Shown here: positions 40,046-49,407 of the stretch, piece by piece | Layout of the letters: the number at the start of each line of letters is the position of its first letter | Position numbering within the stretch: the stretch's first letter is position 1 | DNA from: Micrococcales bacterium | GTDB lineage: Bacteria > Actinomycetota > Actinomycetes > Actinomycetales > WQXJ01 | DNA: 49,407 bases | Reading direction: 5' to 3' | NCBI GenBank assembly: GCA_009784895.1 | Contig: WQXJ01000013.1 | Location: forward strand, 1 to 49,407 | Notes under the pieces: generated by a model | The model's database searches: none | The model's input: only the letters and a program-made list of their open reading frames with translations | What the model was told of the DNA's origin: nothing | Program-made: the position numbers and the translations under genes

Positions 40046-40447
40046 TCAAGGCAGAACAGCGACGCCAATTTTGACAGCCGCGGCTGCCAGATCGGCATCA
40101 AGCGTGGCCAAAGGCAAGCCCTGAGCTCTGGCCAAAGCCAGGTAGGCGGCATCGTAGGCCAATAACCCGTGCTGATACGCGGTGGCGACTAGTTCTTCGC
40201 TGTTCGGCCGGCCGGCGCACACGTCCAACGGCAGCGAATCGAGTAGGGCCCTCAGCCTGTGCAGTTCTGCCTCGGCTAGCCGTCCTTTCCGCATTGCTGT
40301 CACCAGAGCGTTGCTGATCTCATAGACCCAAAGAGGGGGAATAATGCCGCCTTCGCGCTGGACACGCAATAAAACTCCATCTGTCGCTGGGGTGGCTTCG
40401 TCTTCAAAGCACCAGGCCAACGCCACAGAGGCGTCAACAACTATCAC
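40046..40447 (-). CDS. vapC: PIN-domain ribonuclease toxin, VapC type
   Basis: VapC toxins cleave specific RNAs, often tRNA or rRNA, when free of antitoxin. The 133-residue PIN domain has its acidic residues in place: Asp5 (VVDASV), Glu43 (WVYEISNAL), Asp99 (LLAYDAAYL) and Asp117 (TLDADL). It overlaps the antitoxin gene by four bases and is co-transcribed with it from the minus strand. It converges with the UPF0182 gene. The target is not predictable from sequence. Confidence 0.92.
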   Translation of the reverse strand: MIVVDASVALAWCFEDEATPATDGVLLRVQREGGIIPPLWVYEISNALVTAMRKGRLAEAELHRLRALLDSLPLDVCAGRPNSEELVATAYQHGLLAYDAAYLALARAQGLPLATLDADLAAAAVKIGVAVLP

Positions 40448-40689
40448 TGCCGGCCCTCGTCGATGAGCTCGCGGACACTAAGTCCGCCCAGCCGAACCCC
40501 CTGCCGGGCCTTCCGGAATGCCTCCACGACCTCATCAGGGTCGCCACCAGCTGCGGGATTGACTGGCGTCAGCCGGGCCACTGGTGTGCCGTGGCGCAGG
40601 ATCGTGATTGTGTGGCCGGCCGCGACCTGGTCGAGCAGTTGGGACAGATGTGTCTTGGCCTCATACGCCCCAACAGTGGTCTTGGTCAT
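40444..40689 (-). CDS. vapB: Antitoxin of Phd/YefM type paired with VapC
   Basis: The 81-residue product has the Phd/YefM fold signature EAKTHLSQLLDQVAAGHTITIL followed by RHGTPVARLTP, and a C-terminal helix likely to bind the toxin (VVEAFRKARQGVRLGGLSVRELIDEG). The antitoxin and complex should bind the 33-bp palindrome directly upstream. The ATG at 40689 has no ribosome site and lies six bases after the -10 box, so translation is probably leaderless. Confidence 0.9.
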   Translation of the reverse strand: MTKTTVGAYEAKTHLSQLLDQVAAGHTITILRHGTPVARLTPVNPAAGGDPDEVVEAFRKARQGVRLGGLSVRELIDEGRQ

Positions 40690-40724
40690 GATTTCAGACT
40701 AGTCGACGACTAGTCTGAAATCAA
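40690..40724 (-). promoter_or_regulatory. Promoter and 33-bp palindromic operator of vapBC
   Basis: Positions 40690-40722 form a perfect palindrome with 16-base arms (GATTTCAGACTAGTCG and its complement) around A40706. On the minus strand TTGATT (40719-40724) and TAGTCT (40696-40701) are a -35 and -10 with a 17-bp spacer, both overlapping the palindrome. The ATG lies six bases after the -10. Autoregulation by the antitoxin complex is inferred. Confidence 0.85.
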
Positions 40725-40852: not shown

Positions 40853-40926
40853 CGCGGGGTGGAGCAGTTCGGTAGCTCGCCGGGCTCATAACCCGGAGGT
40901 CGGTGGTTCAAATCCACCCCCCGCTA
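40853..40926 (+). tRNA. Initiator tRNA-fMet (anticodon CAT)
   Basis: The cloverleaf folds from CGCGGGG (40853-40859) with CCCCGC (40919-40924), and the T arm GGTGG-TTCAAAT-CCACC. The anticodon loop CTCATAA carries CAT. The anticodon stem has the run GGG paired with CCC, and the first acceptor position is mismatched (C with T), both marks of an initiator tRNA. The 3' CCA is not encoded (ACTTG follows). It is followed by a hairpin at 40934-40969. Confidence 0.95.
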
Positions 40927-40933
40927 CTTGTCC

Positions 40934-40969
40934 AAGGGTCTGACCAGTGGAAACACTTGCCAGGCCCTT
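40934..40969 (+). terminator. Terminator-like hairpin after tRNA-fMet
   Basis: AAGGGTCTG (40934-40942) pairs with CAGGCCCTT (40961-40969) with one G-U pair, over an 18-base loop. It lies eight bases after the tRNA, and a loose T-rich stretch (TGACTCTTCT) follows. Confidence 0.6.
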
Positions 40970-41079
40970 GTGACTCTTCTCCGGCGCGATCCCAAGTGTC
41001 CATTTGCTGTCCACTTTCAGCGGGATTTTGTCCGGTTCGGACGCGTTTCGGCGAGCACAAACGGGTGCCGTTGAGACCG

Positions 41080-41152
41080 CCTGTCGGCGGTCGAGGGCTC
41101 CGCAGGTGCGTCCAAAAACTGCCGAGATTTCGAAGCCTCGACCGCCGCCAGG
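41080..41152. repeat. Inverted repeat with 17-base arms
   Basis: The arms 41080-41096 (CCTGTCGGCGGTCGAGG) and 41136-41152 (CCTCGACCGCCGCCAGG) are complementary at 16 of 17 positions, with a 39-base centre. It has no coding overlap. It may be a transcription barrier, an element end or a transfer-related site. No matching copy was found elsewhere in the window. Confidence 0.7.
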
Positions 41153-41271
41153 CACCATTTGACCCTTCCCATACCTGGGAGATACTTCCCGAATCCAGCA
41201 CCTGTTACGGCTCGCTTTCCGCGGGTAGTGAGTCATTCTGGTATTGTCAATTGCAACCTTACTTGCCAGAT

Positions 41272-42111
41272 ATGTTAGAAAAACGGTTTCAAATGACAGA
41301 AACGAGGGCCTTGCCGCGTCGCGTGGCTGGGGTTGTCGAGCGACTGGAGATTGACCAACCGCGCGTCGTCACCATGCGTGAGCTTGCCCGGATCGCTGTC
41401 GATGTGGGGGCGTGTTCTGACATAGCAGATGCTCCGAAACTGGCTTACTGGCTGCAAACCCTGGGCTGGCTAGGGAGTTTGCGAACCGAAGGCGTGTGGG
41501 AGTTCCTTCCTGGCGCGCGAGCTGGGGCGTACGGGTCGGGTGACCGGTTCATTGAGTTCAGGGCACAACGGGCTGTCTACCCTTGGTGGCCTGGTGTCTT
41601 GGCAATGGAGTCGGCGGCGAGCTTACTAGGCCTGGCTCAGCGGCTTCCGACCAGCGAAGTTGTTGCTTTACCTGCGGGGGTGGCCTTACCCAAGGCGTTG
41701 TCTGTGTGGCGTTACGTCACGGTTGCTCTGCCGGACTCTGCTCAGGTTGAGCGTGATGGGTTGGTCTATTGGAGCATGACTGGGCTGATCGCTGGAATAG
41801 CTTTCCGCCCATCAGGTTACCGAGACCTAGCTGGGCTGGCTCAGTGGTTGCCCGAGGCGGGTGCCCAACTGGATCAGAGCATTCTGATGGAAGCTTTGGA
41901 GGCTGCCGCTTCGTCGGTGCGTCAGCGGGCGGCCTACCTGGCTCGGCTGGCTGGCGCTGATGCCGTCGCTATGGCCCTGCTTGCAGGGCATCTTCCTGTT
42001 AGGCCGGTCTGGTATGGGCCTACCCGTGCGGCTGGAGCTCGATACGACCCGGTCACAGGTGTATCCGACGGTGATCTGGCACCGTACCTGACAGGAGGTT
42101 TCGGATCATGA
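41272..42111 (+). CDS. abiEi: AbiEi-family antitoxin (type IV toxin-antitoxin)
   Basis: AbiEi proteins repress their operon through an N-terminal winged helix and counter the AbiEii toxin. The 279-residue product has such an N-terminal region (VVTMRELARIAVDVGACSDIADAPKLAYWLQTLGWL) and a C-terminal helical domain. ATG 41272 is the first Met in the AT-richer leader; ATG 41293 is also possible. It overlaps abiEii by four bases (ATGA). The family call is from gene pairing and length as much as from sequence. Confidence 0.8.
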   Translation: MLEKRFQMTETRALPRRVAGVVERLEIDQPRVVTMRELARIAVDVGACSDIADAPKLAYWLQTLGWLGSLRTEGVWEFLPGARAGAYGSGDRFIEFRAQRAVYPWWPGVLAMESAASLLGLAQRLPTSEVVALPAGVALPKALSVWRYVTVALPDSAQVERDGLVYWSMTGLIAGIAFRPSGYRDLAGLAQWLPEAGAQLDQSILMEALEAAASSVRQRAAYLARLAGADAVAMALLAGHLPVRPVWYGPTRAAGARYDPVTGVSDGDLAPYLTGGFGS

Positions 42112-43004
42112 CCGGTATCACCGAGGGCTACCTGGCCCGCCACTACCAGGGCATCCGGGGTGCCAGAGATGCCGCTTTGCTTGACATCGCTCAGGACCAT
42201 GCCCTCTACCACTTGCACCATGTCGGCTTGTTCGACCGTGGCTTGGTGTTCAAAGGCGGCACCGCGCTGCGCAAATACCGGGCAGGTAGAAGTGGCAGGT
42301 TCTCTACCGATCTCGACTTCGCCGCCCCGGACGAAACGCTGGCCATTGACACGCTCAGCACCATTGAAGACATTGACATTGATGACTTCCGTTTCCAAGC
42401 CGTCGATCTGGGGGATGACGGGAGGCGCGCCACCCTCATAGTTGATACGCCATTCGGGCGCCCGAACATCGCCGCCAAGATAGAACTGGCCAGGCACCCG
42501 CTCAGCTTGTCTGTGGAGCTTTTGGCGCCCATTCCGGTTCCGATCCACCGCCTTTACGGCTTCGACGTGCCAGCCGTGCCCGTCGTCAATCAAGCTGAGG
42601 CCATCGCTGAGAAGCTTGCCCGTTTCCGTCGCGTCGATCTGGCCCGTGACCTCTACGACCTCGCCTGGTATGCCAAGCGTCCGTTCAATGAACCGCTGGT
42701 GCGTCGCCTATGGATTCTGAAGACCTATCGGGACATCGTTCATGACAAGCGCGGCGACAAACCCATCGACCCCGAACAAGTCCTCCGTATCCGCAAGGCC
42801 GATGCTTTCCGCAGCGAGGACATCGGTTACCTCACCGGCAAGGTCGATATTTCCGGTTGGATGGCAACAGTCGCCAGTCGTTTCGGCTTCCTCCGAGACC
42901 TTGATGACCAAGAACAGCTTTGGTGCACCTGCAACCTGCGCGATGATTACGACGTCACACAGGCCTTCGCCGCAATCAGCGACTGGCCGACACCCGCTTC
43001 GTAG
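42108..43004 (+). CDS. abiEii: AbiEii-family nucleotidyltransferase toxin
   Basis: AbiEii toxins are nucleotidyltransferases that block growth; in abortive infection this limits phage spread. The 298-residue product has the fold's signature at residues 48-71: FKGGTALRKY followed by FSTDLDF, with Asp68 and Asp70 as the metal ligands. The later AIAEKLARFRRVDLARDLYDL is typical of the family. It is translationally coupled to abiEi. Confidence 0.88.
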   Translation: MTGITEGYLARHYQGIRGARDAALLDIAQDHALYHLHHVGLFDRGLVFKGGTALRKYRAGRSGRFSTDLDFAAPDETLAIDTLSTIEDIDIDDFRFQAVDLGDDGRRATLIVDTPFGRPNIAAKIELARHPLSLSVELLAPIPVPIHRLYGFDVPAVPVVNQAEAIAEKLARFRRVDLARDLYDLAWYAKRPFNEPLVRRLWILKTYRDIVHDKRGDKPIDPEQVLRIRKADAFRSEDIGYLTGKVDISGWMATVASRFGFLRDLDDQEQLWCTCNLRDDYDVTQAFAAISDWPTPAS

Positions 43005-43098
43005 CCACGCCGTCCAACTCGATTCTTACTTTGACTGGGAGATATGTCCCGGTTATGCGTAGTGATTCACGCGACGTGAGTACGTTGCAATACCTCGG

Positions 43099-45651
43099 CT
43101 AACCAAGATCAAGATGCTCGGCGACATAGTCGGCGGGCAGGATCGCCGACGCACCTCGGGTGTACCCGGCGCGACGAACCGTCACCGCACCGTCATGGTG
43201 GGTCTTGAGGATGGTCCACCGGTCACCATTGCGGACCCACCCTGTTCTGCCTGCGATCAGGTGACGATTGTTCTGCCGGGTGATGACGGTGTCTCCAGTC
43301 GACACACGGCTCCCGTCGTTCACCTCAAGTTCCCGCTGCGGATCGACCTGCCCCGCCAGAATCCGGTCATGGCGTGCTTGCCGGTTCAACTCCTGGACCG
43401 TGGTCAAGGCGTCGGCAACGAGGAGCGAAGCCACCCCTTGAGTGGTGTCGTCTCGCCATGCTTCATACGCCAGTTGGGTGACTTGGTCGAGATCCCCATC
43501 AATCAACCTGCCGTGGGTTTCATACTGGTCGAGTGCCGCAGGGTCGGCGTGACGTAGGGCGAGGGACGCGGTTTTCTCCCATTCGTTCGTGAACCGGTGA
43601 ATGTCGGTCAACTCCGGGGCGTCCCTGCGGTTGGCGACAAGCATGGTGAACGCACCACCAGCATCAACAGCTTGGAGTTGCGCCCAATCACCCACGAGCA
43701 CCACTTTCGCGCCCGCCTGGTTGGCGAGGCTGGTGATTCGGTCCAGGGTGAAGGTTCCCGCGAGCGAGGCTTCGTCGATGATCACCAGTTGCCCTGGTTG
43801 GTAGTCCACGCCTGTGTGGTCGTGGAGGGCTAGCCAGCGAGCGGTGTTCTCGGTGGGGATGCCGAGGTCCTCACCCAACACGGCGGCAGCGGTCGCTGAG
43901 GGTGCCAATCCGATCACCGATCCTGGCCCGTGCTCGGTTTCCCACGCGGTTCGCAACGATGTCAGCGCGGTGGTTTTCCCGGCACCTGCCGGGCCGACAA
44001 GCACGTCAAGCATCCGCCCCGAGGTGGTGATCCACGTCAGCGCATCGACCTGGTCAGGGCCGAGCATTCTGCCGTGCGAGTCTGGTTGCGCCGCGACTCG
44101 ATGGATCGTGGCGTAAGGGACGACTGGGCCGGTTAAGACTTCCGTCAGTTCAGCGAGTCTGGTTTCGGCGTCGAAAAGGTCCTGGGAGGAGTACACGGTC
44201 ATGTGTTTGGGGCGGAATCGTGAGGACCCATCAGGTCGGCGGAACTGATCCGGGGCCGACATCTCGGCTGGTGTCAGCCGCAGCGACTGATGTTCGGCGG
44301 CGTCACAGATCAACTCGGTCAGGGCCACCCGGTCGCCAGTAGATGCGAAGCGCCAACCCATGGTTTGCCGAGATGCCTCGGCGTGAAGATTCCAACGCCG
44401 CCAGGTCGACCGGCGTTCACCCACCGTGGCCAACACGGACAGCGCGAGGGCATCAATCATGTCAACAGGAATGTCATCGGCGCGAACCACGACAGACTCG
44501 GACTGCGCGATGACCCGCCGCGCCCAGCTGGTGGCATCCTCATCAAGCTGACTGGAGGCGCGCTGCCGCCACTCGGCAGTCAGATCCGCCAGCGAGCGGA
44601 TCTGTTTGTCTGGTCTGGTCGCCAGTGTTGCCTGTTGACGCAACTGGAGGATCATCCGCCTCGAGGGGCGTCTGCCATGCTCGGCCACATAGGCGGCGAT
44701 CCGCCGGTCGGTTTCCTGGTCGATGTCGCCTGCCCTGGTGGAGAACATGCCGATCAAATCGTCACCTACCCCGGTGATCTCCCACGCCGGATTGCGGTCC
44801 CTGCCGCGTTCCCGCGCATCCCAATCGACACCTAGGACGCGGGTCATCCGGTCTGCCAGGACCGCGTTGTACAAAGCGGACAATGTGACCACTGCTGAGT
44901 GCATCGGACGCGAGTCGACGCTTCGCCATTTCCCATCATGGGCAGCGCACACCTTGTTCGCCACGACAACGTGCGTATGCAACTGGGGGTCGCCAGCTCG
45001 CGAGTCGTAATGGTCGAACCCGGTCGCCACGATCCCTGTCACATCGGCTTGGACAATTGACCCGTCACGAGCCTCCACTCCCGTGCGAGTCGCGACGACC
45101 TCCCGCTCCATGAAACCCACCACATCAGCGACCGCGTCATGATGCGCCTGTGCGATCAGCGCCTGAGTCCCAGCGTCAGCGACACCCCACAACACGCTCA
45201 CCGACTTCGGGACACTAAAGGTGTAGTCGAACCCGGCGACGGCTCGACGCGTACCCCGCCGGGTCTCATCCTGCTCAATCTCCACCAGGGCCTGAGCACG
45301 CTCAGCGCCCGACAAGGCGGGGTCGAGTGCTCGAGCCCGCTGATCAACACGCTCGCTCACCGAGGCATACTGCGGATAGGCACGCCCGAGCGGTTCACCT
45401 GTCACCGGGTGACGCCCCTGACCGATCAGCAACTCCAACTGAGCCTCAGTGACAATCTCACCTTCACTGAGCATCTGGTCACCCAGCGAGGTGACACCTG
45501 ATCCCATCCACCGTCCAGGTGGACAACCAGCCTCGTCGTAGTAACGCGTCAACGGAGTCGACAGTGACCGGTCGCCATCGCCCGCCGCCACCGATGTGAG
45601 CAGATACTTGTACCCATCCCCGGCGCTCATCAACCGCATCGACACCGTCAC
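43099..45651 (-). CDS. MobF-family conjugative relaxase, C-terminally truncated
   Basis: This TraA/TrwC-type relaxase nicks DNA at oriT and unwinds it for transfer. The 850-residue product has the N-terminal relaxase domain with catalytic Tyr37-Tyr38 (TRYYDEAGC) and the metal histidines in HYDSRAGDPQLHTHVVV (His214, 225, 227). A helicase domain has Walker A VGPAGAGKTT (552-561), Walker B IIDEAS (624-629) and GDWAQLQAVDAGGAF. It stops at residue 850 in ...AEHLDLG, just where such proteins continue with GYA...AQG-type helicase motifs, so the last motifs are missing. GTG 45651 has GGAG upstream. Conjugation function is probably lost or impaired. Confidence 0.92.
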   Translation of the reverse strand: MTVSMRLMSAGDGYKYLLTSVAAGDGDRSLSTPLTRYYDEAGCPPGRWMGSGVTSLGDQMLSEGEIVTEAQLELLIGQGRHPVTGEPLGRAYPQYASVSERVDQRARALDPALSGAERAQALVEIEQDETRRGTRRAVAGFDYTFSVPKSVSVLWGVADAGTQALIAQAHHDAVADVVGFMEREVVATRTGVEARDGSIVQADVTGIVATGFDHYDSRAGDPQLHTHVVVANKVCAAHDGKWRSVDSRPMHSAVVTLSALYNAVLADRMTRVLGVDWDARERGRDRNPAWEITGVGDDLIGMFSTRAGDIDQETDRRIAAYVAEHGRRPSRRMILQLRQQATLATRPDKQIRSLADLTAEWRQRASSQLDEDATSWARRVIAQSESVVVRADDIPVDMIDALALSVLATVGERRSTWRRWNLHAEASRQTMGWRFASTGDRVALTELICDAAEHQSLRLTPAEMSAPDQFRRPDGSSRFRPKHMTVYSSQDLFDAETRLAELTEVLTGPVVPYATIHRVAAQPDSHGRMLGPDQVDALTWITTSGRMLDVLVGPAGAGKTTALTSLRTAWETEHGPGSVIGLAPSATAAAVLGEDLGIPTENTARWLALHDHTGVDYQPGQLVIIDEASLAGTFTLDRITSLANQAGAKVVLVGDWAQLQAVDAGGAFTMLVANRRDAPELTDIHRFTNEWEKTASLALRHADPAALDQYETHGRLIDGDLDQVTQLAYEAWRDDTTQGVASLLVADALTTVQELNRQARHDRILAGQVDPQRELEVNDGSRVSTGDTVITRQNNRHLIAGRTGWVRNGDRWTILKTHHDGAVTVRRAGYTRGASAILPADYVAEHLDLG

Positions 45652-45984
45652 AAACGCTCCCTTCCACCACGAAGGTGAGCACGGACCCCCCGACTGCCAA
45701 CGGTGTGAGGAGAATATTCAGCCTGACAAGGTAAGGCGACTGGTGCGGCAAGGATCGACGGTGACCTTCAGCAGGGGTGATCACTGCTCGAAAGGGCTGG
45801 AGCGACAGTGCGGGCTGGGTGATTATGTGGTCGGATGAGTGGAGTCAAGGTCGTTCATGGCCGGTCCCCTCTCGTCGGAGTCCTCGCTAATGTTGCGGGA
45901 TGGTCAGGCGTCGAAAAGACCCACCCGTACGGGGCCAGAGGACTAGACGATGAGTTCTACGGTGAGCGTCATTTGTTTGGTCTC
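45652..45984. other. Intergenic region upstream of the relaxase gene
   Basis: About 330 bp between the relaxase start and the end of the PIN-like gene. No gene is supported. It contains the palindrome GAATATTC (45712-45719) on the relaxase promoter side and a GTCAC/GTGAC hairpin near the PIN-like stop. An oriT would be expected next to a relaxase gene, but I could not identify one. Confidence 0.45.
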
Positions 45985-47106
45985 TCAGGCACAGTCACCT
46001 CTCGTGACACCGTCACTTCTGAAGGTCGGGTGAGCCAACCATGCAGTGAGTTCAGCCGGTGTACCAGCTAGGTGAGTTCCGAAGCTATGAATGTCCTGCC
46101 TGCTCTGGAGCGCGTGCCGCAATGCGTTGTCGGTCATCACAGCGTCACAATATGCAAACGCGGTCGACAGTGCGTCGATGTCGAAGACGTCGTTCACTTT
46201 CCATGATCGCCGTGGGTCTTTGTGATAGGCGGTCTTGACGCTGATGGCCACCTGGACGTGCGGCATGGCCGTGATTAGGGCTATCCACCGATCTGGCGTC
46301 ATGTCGACCCATGACAGCCCGTCGCTCACTCTCTCAAGCAGATGACGGTTTATCAGGTCGACCCACTCGCCAATGACTTCCCTGCCTGTGACGAAGTCTC
46401 TGAGGCGACCGGCGCGAAGCTCAGGGTTCTTGTCCAGGATGGAGACCGACTCCACTTCCCATGCCAGGCGGCTGTCCATGCCCACGTCAACGCTTTCGGG
46501 CCTGTAGCCGTAGTTCGCTCTCAAATCCGCATCCTGGGCATCGGTCGGACCGCGCAGCATGATCTGTTCGAACTGCATTCGTCCGTCGAGAAACAAGCTG
46601 TCGAGTTCCGCCGATCCGACCAACTTGCGAACAGCATCGGTCACATTTTCACAGCCTGAGTCTTGCACTTTGAAGGCGATTTTGATCCCGTAGGCTTGAC
46701 CTGAGCCGAAGCCGACCAAGGGGATCTGCCAGGAGGGTGGCGGCTCCCCAGCGATTGCCGCCACGCCGCTCGCAATCTCCAGTTGAGCCAGAGGCTTCGG
46801 GCCGAGAATGTACTGAAGTCCGCTCAGTCGCTCCATGAGGGCTGCGACTCTCGCCCGTTGTGGATTCTTGCTCTTGTTGATTTCCCAGAGGTGCTGCAGC
46901 GAAAGCGGAACCACGACTTGGTGGTTATCGACTGCTCTTTCCAGGGCCGTCAGGAGGTGCGCATTCTCGGTGGGGACGTTCGGGTTTCCTGCCCGCGAGC
47001 GTGCCATGTAGATGAAGTGGTTGATATCCAGGTATACCGATGGCACACCAGGCCACTGCATCTGGGGCCACACCAGTTCGGCAGCGATATCAGCGCGGTT
47101 CGACAT
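45985..47106 (-). CDS. Uncharacterised PIN-like nuclease-fold protein
   Basis: I do not recognise the family. The 373-residue product has the acidic residues of a PIN-type nuclease but spread over a long chain: Asp27 in YLDINHFIYMARS, Glu75 in LQHLWEINK, Asp306/309/311 in NDVFDIDALS, and Asp321/Asp326 in YCDAVMTDNAL. The long middle part (about residues 90-290) has no recognised motif. ATG 47106 follows GGAG at eight bases; GTG 47136 is upstream in frame. It lies between the Shedu gene and the relaxase on the same strand, which suggests a defence or element-stability role. A toxin-like RNase is possible but no antitoxin gene is adjacent. Confidence 0.6.
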   Translation of the reverse strand: MSNRADIAAELVWPQMQWPGVPSVYLDINHFIYMARSRAGNPNVPTENAHLLTALERAVDNHQVVVPLSLQHLWEINKSKNPQRARVAALMERLSGLQYILGPKPLAQLEIASGVAAIAGEPPPSWQIPLVGFGSGQAYGIKIAFKVQDSGCENVTDAVRKLVGSAELDSLFLDGRMQFEQIMLRGPTDAQDADLRANYGYRPESVDVGMDSRLAWEVESVSILDKNPELRAGRLRDFVTGREVIGEWVDLINRHLLERVSDGLSWVDMTPDRWIALITAMPHVQVAISVKTAYHKDPRRSWKVNDVFDIDALSTAFAYCDAVMTDNALRHALQSRQDIHSFGTHLAGTPAELTAWLAHPTFRSDGVTRGDCA

Positions 47107-47169
47107 CGGTCGTTCTCCGTCCAGTTGCGCTCTCACTAGGGGGACGGCACTTCTGTGTCCAAGTCCTTG

Positions 47170-48441
47170 TCACTTCGCTCCACCGGCCTCCTCTGTCTCA
47201 TCCGCTTCAGGATCGTTACTGCTCTGCGTCAGCCACTCGGCTCTGGCAAGCAGCTCATCAAAGGTGATGATCTCCGGAGCATGCGTGTTTCGCCTGAGTA
47301 ACTGGAATGACCGAACTTTGTCCGGATTGTCACCTCCCGCATGCCCGCGCAGTTCTGCCAGACTCCCGATGACGAGGAACGACCTTGGTTGGACGAGGTA
47401 CGTGACGTCATTAGGGATCTCACCACCGTCCGAGTCACGCGCGTAAATACGGTCGCCAATCTGCTGTGTCGCCAAATGCACGGTGCCCTGACACTGGGCG
47501 ATTCCGCCAGCGAGTTCCTCTGATGCAGACCAGCAACCAGGCCTGTACTCCCTACCAAGCAGAGGCGCCCGGTGGTGTTTGAACTCGGCAAACACCATGG
47601 AGCTGACGATGCCAGCGGTGCGAAGTAAGGCATCCGCACGCTTGCCAACTCCAGAAATAGATCGGCCCGTGACAACCTGTTCAAGTTTCTCATCGCTCCA
47701 AGAGGTAAGGAGCTGTCCCGTCAGCCCAACACCGAGAATCCAGGAGTTCTCCTCGAAGAACGTCTGCCACACGGCTTCACTGCCTGCCACTCCCAGGCGC
47801 TGCTTCTCAGCGTCAAAGAAACCTTGATCCTCAAGCAACCGGCGAAAATGGTCTACTGCAACACGCCGGTTGGCCGTCGCCACCACGTCCTTTGCATTGA
47901 CATTGCCCTCGATGACCTGTCTGATGGCGTCCGGGTCAGCATCGTACGCGGAGATCAGCGCCGTCGGGTCCGAGAACACTTGTCTGACCAGGGCATCGTC
48001 GATGCGGGTTGTGTACTCGTCGCCCTGGATCGGCACGTAGTCCAGGTTACGTAGTGTCTCAACCAACGACTCAGCCTCCCGGCCCGACAGAGCCAGCACA
48101 GTGACGCACTCGAGGCCGTCTTTCGACTGCTTCAGCTTCTGAATCCATAGGTCCTTAACATGCTTCGCATCACGCGCCACCAGGAGTTTGATCTGCACAC
48201 GACCGCCTGGCGACCTACGGATGTCCCACGCATGGCCATCTACTTCGACGTGAATGTCACCGTCAATGAGTTCTTCATACACCTTGTAGACGAACCGTGC
48301 TGGTTGCCCGTCATCGGCAGATCCCGGCCTCTTCAGCCTAAAAGTCCTAGACAGGTACGTCCTATCTAGCTGGCGGCCAACCATGTATGTCGTTTCATCC
48401 GGCTCGGCCAGGTCCCAGAAATCCCGATCATCTATGGTCAT
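47170..48441 (-). CDS. sduA: Shedu-type (DUF4263) anti-phage nuclease
   Basis: Shedu systems are single-gene phage defences built on a DUF4263 nuclease domain. The 423-residue product has an N-terminal region of about 200 residues, then the nuclease core: FFEENSWILGVGL (228-240), Asp270 in GVGKRADALL, Glu286 and Lys288 in FAEFKHH, and Gln316/Gln318 in GGIAQCQG. These form the PD-(D/E)xK-type active site. ATG 48441 follows AGGAGG. It lies next to a type ISP restriction-modification gene and the PIN-like gene on the same strand, a typical defence island. Family assignment is by motif pattern. Confidence 0.85.
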   Translation of the reverse strand: MTIDDRDFWDLAEPDETTYMVGRQLDRTYLSRTFRLKRPGSADDGQPARFVYKVYEELIDGDIHVEVDGHAWDIRRSPGGRVQIKLLVARDAKHVKDLWIQKLKQSKDGLECVTVLALSGREAESLVETLRNLDYVPIQGDEYTTRIDDALVRQVFSDPTALISAYDADPDAIRQVIEGNVNAKDVVATANRRVAVDHFRRLLEDQGFFDAEKQRLGVAGSEAVWQTFFEENSWILGVGLTGQLLTSWSDEKLEQVVTGRSISGVGKRADALLRTAGIVSSMVFAEFKHHRAPLLGREYRPGCWSASEELAGGIAQCQGTVHLATQQIGDRIYARDSDGGEIPNDVTYLVQPRSFLVIGSLAELRGHAGGDNPDKVRSFQLLRRNTHAPEIITFDELLARAEWLTQSSNDPEADETEEAGGAK

Positions 48442-48549
48442 GGTGCCTCCTGTCTACCTGGTTCGACCTGCTTGGCACGTACACGGTGAAACCACCGCTT
48501 CTGGTTAACTAGGCAACGCACCTTTGTTGGGCCGGTGAGCCACTCCACG

Positions 48550-49407
48550 TCAACTCTCCCCATCAGCAGTGATCGCTCCAGCCTCGCTGAAAGTCAGGCG
48601 CGGCAACGAGTCGACGATCTCGACGGTGCGCATGCTGACGGTGACGATGCGGGTGAGTAGGTCGAGTATGTAGCGGGGTTGACCATGCTCGCTGGACCAA
48701 TCATTAGGGTCGTTCACGATGCCGGAGGCCTTGTCGGTCTTGACTTGGTAGCGCTCGATGATCCAATCGATGGCGCTGCGCGCACCGAGCATGTACTCCT
48801 GCGCCTCGGGCGGGATACCGTTGATCGTGATGTGTGGGTTGTAGATGACGGTGGTCTTGTCAGGCACCAGCTTGCCGTCTACTCGCCTTTTGCCGTAGGC
48901 CATCTTCTGCACCTGGAACCAGGCGTGCTCATCCCCCTGGGGGTCGTTTCCGGTGATGGTTAGGCCGGGCAACGGCTCCATCTGCTCGTATCCAACGTGG
49001 AGGTCGAACAGCTCGCGGCCTGCCTCGACGAATGCTTCGAAGATCTCGCGGGTGTTGACCTTGGGGATTCGCGGAAGCATCTTTTTTAGGTCTGCCGCGA
49101 AAGTCTCTCGGTAGTCCTGGCTGTGTAACAGGGCGTAGGCGTAGTAGAAGATGTCGTCCTTGGTGGTTTGACTACCATAGGTCAGTTGGTAGTCGACAAG
49201 CGCTGCATCCGTTACATTGTCGATTCGCCGGTGCCCATCGACGATGACGACTTCAGGCTCGTCAAACGAGAACGCCCCTTGAGGGGTTGTCGGGTCGTCA
49301 AGCGGCTCGTAGCGCCAGCGCGGGAAGAACTGGCCGGGGTTGCCCGCCCCTCCAACGACCAAATTCGGTATCCGGTCGGTTGCAAGGACGCTAAACGGTG
49401 CCGCAGA
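48550..49407 (-). CDS. Type ISP restriction-modification protein, C-terminal part
   Basis: The reading frame stays open to the right edge of the window, so the N-terminal helicase/nuclease and methyltransferase domains lie outside. The visible 285 residues match the C-terminal specificity region of LlaBIII-type enzymes: PFSVLATDRIPNL, FFPRWRYEPLD, DIFYYAYALLHSQDYRETFA, ADLKKMLPRIP, and SAIDWIIERYQVKTDKASGI with VNDPNDWS after it. Type ISP enzymes combine restriction and methylation in one polypeptide. TTG 49362 is internal and not the start. The Shedu gene follows 108 bp downstream. Confidence 0.88.
   Translation of the reverse strand, partial: SAAPFSVLATDRIPNLVVGGAGNPGQFFPRWRYEPLDDPTTPQGAFSFDEPEVVIVDGHRRIDNVTDAALVDYQLTYGSQTTKDDIFYYAYALLHSQDYRETFAADLKKMLPRIPKVNTREIFEAFVEAGRELFDLHVGYEQMEPLPGLTITGNDPQGDEHAWFQVQKMAYGKRRVDGKLVPDKTTVIYNPHITINGIPPEAQEYMLGARSAIDWIIERYQVKTDKASGIVNDPNDWSSEHGQPRYILDLLTRIVTVSMRTVEIVDSLPRLTFSEAGAITADGES

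Follow-up and report, generated by a model that had tools for sequence, protein, structure and literature searches.

A candidate antitoxin-less anti-phage nuclease with a predicted split PIN domain, encoded next to Shedu

The split-PIN gene and its surroundings

The window analyzed here (the whole stretch of DNA studied; 49,407 nucleotides) is one whole contig of a 2.36-Mb assembly, which its relatives suggest is actinobacterial. Its minus strand carries an open reading frame (ORF) at positions 45985 to 47106 (ATG at 47106; stop at 45985) that translates into 373 aa and is referred to below as the split-PIN gene. A Shine-Dalgarno-like GGAG is located approximately 10 nt 5' of the ATG, and a start at a GTG located 30 nt further 5' would lengthen the protein by 10 aa. 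The G+C contents of the three codon positions (63/44/69%) follow the pattern typical of a genuine high-G+C gene, and the chance of a 373-codon open frame at this G+C content is low (P of ~6e-6 per frame). The ORF is a genuine intact gene.

Three further genes accompany it on the minus strand. The C-terminal part of a type ISP/IIG restriction-modification (RM) enzyme (48550 to 49407; Pfam Type_ISP_C, 1e-67; PADLOC REase_MTase_IIG, 1e-91), whose gene is cut by the contig end, is followed after 108 nt by Shedu (SduA; 47170 to 48441; Pfam SduA_C, E = 3e-28; PADLOC SduA, E = 6e-127), after another 63 nt by the split-PIN gene, and after 333 nt by a MobF (TrwC-type) relaxase (43099 to 45651; Pfam TrwC, 9e-91; NCBIfam MobF, 1e-70). 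An earlier sequence-only reading had placed the gene on the same strand between Shedu and a relaxase, with no antitoxin as a neighbor; both observations were confirmed, as nothing antitoxin-like adjoins it. A terminator-like hairpin with a T run (45920 to 45933, minus strand) lies 52 nt 3' of the split-PIN stop and is possibly the end of a Shedu-PIN transcript; it comes from a pattern scan only, whose yield (5 sites versus 2.8 expected) is weak.

The short distance to Shedu raises the question of whether the protein is an accessory subunit of the adjoining defense system (here, Shedu) that provides extra nuclease activity or regulation. The 63-nt gap on the same strand and a terminator-like hairpin that follows the PIN gene but not Shedu agree with such a role. 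However, Shedu was not a neighbor of any other member examined, and the partners vary by locus. We consider a subunit role very unlikely; an independent system co-located with Shedu is the best explanation.

The wider region begins with a tRNA-Met (40853 to 40927), followed by AbiE-like genes (AbiEi as part of 40903 to 42111; AbiEii, 42108 to 43004), the relaxase, the split-PIN gene, Shedu, and the type ISP enzyme. Positions 40853 to 49407 are possibly an integrated element starting at the tRNA-Met; no second attachment site is reached before the end of the contig. Across the tRNA from these genes, positions 40046 to 40689 carry a conventional pair of a Phd/YefM antitoxin and a PIN toxin, a useful contrast in that this pair has an antitoxin, whereas the split-PIN gene has none. 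Just upstream of the pair, there is a 17-nt perfect inverted repeat with a 1-nt spacer (40689 to 40723; TGATTTCAGACTAGTCG / CGACTAGTCTGAAATCA), perhaps a terminator or an operator.

Predicted fold and active site

Neither the split-PIN protein nor its relatives had a credible match in Pfam, NCBIfam, or PHROGs, and PADLOC 2.0 gave no credible profile match between the protein and a known anti-phage family. A PADLOC match to AbiEii (16 bits; E = 0.0014; residues 266 to 338) was rejected as chance because the relatives do not have it. No relative was detected by a sequence search of the PDB. The family is annotated as "hypothetical protein" because it is absent from the four profile libraries tried.

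AlphaFold models were prepared for the window protein and for a member from a temperate-phage contig (L041; 307 aa), which is 23% identical to it, each from a 4-sequence alignment. The mean pLDDT values were 54 and 53, respectively. In the window protein model, pLDDT reached 60 to 89 over most of residues 21 to 120 and 281 to 360, which were modeled as strand-helix-helix-strand-helix and helix-strand-helix-strand-helix, respectively. Foldseek searches against PDB and BFVD returned no significant match (best E of 1.1), and PIN structures were separated only by realignment with VIA. With the window protein model, the top VIA match was VapC (3zvk; Z of 9.3; 126/133 residues; 3.4 Å), and other PIN matches were FitB (8.0), minimal RNase P (7.2), Nob1 (6.2), and Utp23 (5.7), versus 3.6 for the best non-PIN match; a Z of 7 to 9 alone is not decisive for fold assignment. 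The L041 model likewise matched PIN proteins first (Z of 7.5 and 6.6), with the next match at 3.4. Thus, for two divergent members, PIN nucleases ranked well above the first unrelated fold, and the PIN-like structure on which the sequence-only reading had staked its proposal was recovered. A PIN nuclease fold is well supported by these models, and the proteins very probably form a split-PIN nuclease family. In the alignments to one VapC, the matched region runs from residue 22 to residue 350, indicating that the PIN domain would be split, with both halves contributing.

Residue conservation was scored over an alignment of 32 members. The Asp27 codon (47026 to 47028; all codons here are on the minus strand) lies in PIN motif 1 (VYLD) at the end of strand 1, and the residue is present in 31 of the 31 members having this region. 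Glu75 (46882 to 46884), in motif 2 (PLS..h..E) on the helix after strand 2, and Asp309 (46180 to 46182), in motif 3 (ND..DidAls.A.pYCD), are found in 32/32 members each. Position 326 (46129 to 46131), in motif 4 (T-D/E) after the third strand, is Asp in the window protein and D or E in 31/32 members. P282 is likewise conserved in 31 to 32 of the 32. The acidic order D-E-D-(D/E/N) that characterizes the PIN domain-like superfamily was observed in 31 to 32 of 32 members, and D27/E75/D309/D326 is the predicted catalytic set. All of the acidic residues that had been read as a PIN site in the single sequence are at the positions given for them; D27, E75, D309, and D/E326 proved essentially invariant, while D306 (26/32), D311 (13/32), and D321 (D in 23/32 and E in 4) are variable. 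The ungapped spacing from D309 to T325-D326 is the same as that which we take to separate D98 from T114-N115 in VapC.

The two halves are separated by a mostly helical insert (residues ~120 to 280, ~160 aa; 46267 to 46749, minus strand) with a pLDDT of ~30 to 50 over residues 124 to 274. Motifs 2 and 3 are correspondingly far apart, with 234 residues from E75 to D309 and 203 to 238 in all members; the equivalent E-to-D spacing in VapC is presumably ~56 residues. The insertion noted in the sequence-only reading is therefore present, but its size of 200 residues was somewhat too large.

Relatives and their genomic neighborhoods

By tblastn, relatives covering at least 80% of the split-PIN protein were found on Mycobacterium, Streptomyces, Gordonia, and Rhodococcus plasmids. 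With a Rhodococcus member as the query, further members were detected in Mesorhizobium, Bradyrhizobium, Halomicrobium, haloarchaeal viruses, and the Pf phage PfAC03. Among the viral contigs searched, a Pf relative nearly identical to PfAC03 and the temperate-phage member were the only members. Family members are 300 to 440 aa long. Three loci (L003, L004, and L005 from genomes G008, G005, and G013) were excluded as members; these match residues 259 to 351 only, within long helicase-like frames. The dN/dS ratios between close pairs were 0.12 to 0.43, indicating purifying selection on the relatives. The family moves between genomes.

Members are rare and patchily distributed among the sampled genomes (10/394 in the class, 9/396 in the phylum, and 11/245 in one order). 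This bears on the possibility that the protein matures RNA, as the minimal protein-only RNase P (HARP) and Nob1 do, and simply happens to be mobile. HARP, PRORP, and Nob1 are indeed among the structural matches (Z of 5.7 to 7.2). However, such a patchy low frequency, the lack of a stable genomic position, and a protein much larger than HARP all argue against it, and we regard RNA maturation as very unlikely.

Two phage-borne members were inspected individually. The temperate-phage member (L041:2802-3725) lies between apparent tail genes and a tape-measure gene (translations read by eye), placed as a cargo gene would be. In PfAC03 (L038:8992-9939), the member is an accessory gene between the repressor and the excisionase. 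That phage is listed with a toxin-antitoxin (TA) system only (PMC11878078), and the member could be its unrecognized defense gene. Gabija, retron, Kiwa/ShosTA, and IetAS of sister Pf phages sit beyond the repressor, on its far side. The PfAC03 member was thus rejected as an occupant of the Pf defense slot and was left out of the slot evidence because its position differs from those of the sister phages' systems.

Elsewhere, members were accompanied by a variety of defense genes. The Rhodococcus ruber member lies directly after DISARM drmC; distances to a member are 3 kb for Qat, 1.6 kb for a type IIG RM, and 2.2 kb for Wadjet JetC. The candidate system PDC-S06 occurs near members twice. Also nearby are a type ISP RM (Arthrobacter FB24), SIR2 together with an AAA/UvrD pair (Bradyrhizobium), ThiF/E2/patatin genes (Mesorhizobium), a type IIG RM (haloarchaeal virus HCTV-8), and AbiEii (Streptomyces), with Abi and Dam genes among the other neighbors. 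Six annotated loci (Mycobacterium L006; Gordonia L008; Streptomyces L104, L105, and L108; Halobacterium L106) have no known defense gene nearby. Very large proteins (1071 to 1770 aa) beside members at three loci (L067:10620-14366, L071:742-6051, and L072:10507-13719) had no PADLOC match at 1e-10; these are possible unrecognized defense genes.

For the sampled actinobacterial genomes, the neighbors (102 proteins; 49,315 aa) were compared with controls taken from elsewhere in those genomes (96 proteins; 49,294 aa). At E values of ≤1e-8, 139 PADLOC models were matched by the neighbors versus 36 by the controls, the latter being mainly generic helicase and polymerase models, and at ≤1e-59, eight kinds of system were detected among the neighbors versus one among the controls; PADLOC models are redundant, and these figures are contrasts with no formal test. 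The sequence-only reading had also hinged on homologues occurring with defense genes, which they do, with different systems in different genomes and far above the matched controls.

A shared partner gene was sought in the same loci. In an all-against-all comparison of ORFs of at least 60 aa within 6 kb of 32 members, any gene was common to two loci at most, with the sole exception of an IS transposase in four loci. Frames of at least 25 aa in the 600-nt flanks of 33 loci had nothing in common beyond chance pairs. Given that no ORF or short frame is shared across these 32 to 33 loci, an antitoxin protein for the family is unlikely.

These results also bear on whether the family is a PIN nuclease for the upkeep or competition of mobile elements themselves, by stabilizing plasmids or by keeping out superinfecting phages or related plasmids. 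Members do reside on plasmids, in PfAC03 and its near-identical relative, and in haloarchaeal viruses; one is located between apparent tail genes of a temperate phage, and the window gene adjoins a MobF relaxase. However, addiction needs an antitoxin, and none was found; moreover, chromosomal members lie beside Qat, RM, and Wadjet on large contigs. We judge such a role in upkeep or competition to be unlikely, although virus-borne members could instead serve in exclusion or counter-defense.

Proposed function and comparison with known systems

We consider it fairly probable that the split-PIN protein is a solitary anti-phage effector acting on RNA. As proposed here, it would be a one-protein, PIN-family, metal-dependent ribonuclease, with a catalytic domain built from the N-terminal (~20 to 120) and C-terminal (~280 to 360) parts and the ~160-residue, mostly helical insert between them. 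The insert, perhaps with oligomerization, may silence the nuclease in place of an antitoxin. Infection would lift this inhibition, either because the insert binds a phage product or because the cell itself changes; the released enzyme would then cut RNA, most likely tRNA, so that translation and phage growth stop. VapC toxins cut tRNA.

PIN nucleases are textbook toxins requiring an antitoxin. A widespread PIN family that lacks one raises the question of how a potentially lethal RNase is silenced and then released by infection. The alignment supplies a profile, four mutable residues, and a deletable insert. Members in a Pf phage, haloarchaeal viruses, and plasmids suggest a cargo role for the family in the warfare among mobile elements.

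Of the known PIN proteins, the VapC and FitB toxins have the same predicted fold as the split-PIN protein (Z of up to 9.3) and a D-E-D-(D/N) site. They are compact (~130 aa), whereas members of the split-PIN family have 300 to 440 aa, with the ~160-residue insert separating motif 2 from motif 3. VapBC-type systems have a cognate antitoxin gene alongside; no such conserved neighbor was found at 32 to 33 loci of the split-PIN family, which thus differs from that type. HARP and Nob1 match the split-PIN model in PIN fold (Z of 6 to 7), but these are housekeeping enzymes, whereas the distribution and neighborhood of the split-PIN family are those of mobile defense genes. Shedu, which adjoins on the same strand in the window, belongs to a different protein family.

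Another candidate system, PDC-S70 (PMC12988326), consists of a single gene whose product has a PIN nuclease domain. Like the split-PIN protein, it is a single-gene PIN nuclease put forward as a defense candidate through guilt by association and also occurs in archaea. The PDC-S70 models of PADLOC (E of ≤0.1) gave no match among 16 members (the window protein and 15 relatives).

A closer likeness is found in DS-3 (DefensePredictor system 3) of E. coli, a single protein with a PIN RNase domain split between the N and C termini and no cognate antitoxin, for which auto-inhibition has been proposed (PMC13092281). DS-3 experimentally defends E. coli, and catalytic mutants lose defense (PMC13092281; Science 2026). 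Compared by description only, DS-3 and the split-PIN protein are alike in being encoded by a single gene, in having PIN split between the termini, and in having no antitoxin. A DNA search of E. coli with two phage-borne members, which would miss relatives below ~65 to 70% DNA identity, found none. Defense by DS-3 has been shown experimentally, whereas that by the split-PIN protein is what we infer. The sequence-only reading had proposed a new defense effector; the role it assigned agrees with the PIN fold and the defense neighbors, while the novelty is lessened because DS-3 has such an architecture. We tentatively entertain, as a possibility somewhat short of even, that the actinobacterial, proteobacterial, haloarchaeal, and viral members form a separate family of antitoxin-less immune nucleases unrelated by descent to DS-3, with the insert as the infection sensor, so that a single chain would combine sensor, lock, and RNase. 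By the comparison made here, DS-3 appears to be the closest precedent for the split-PIN protein.
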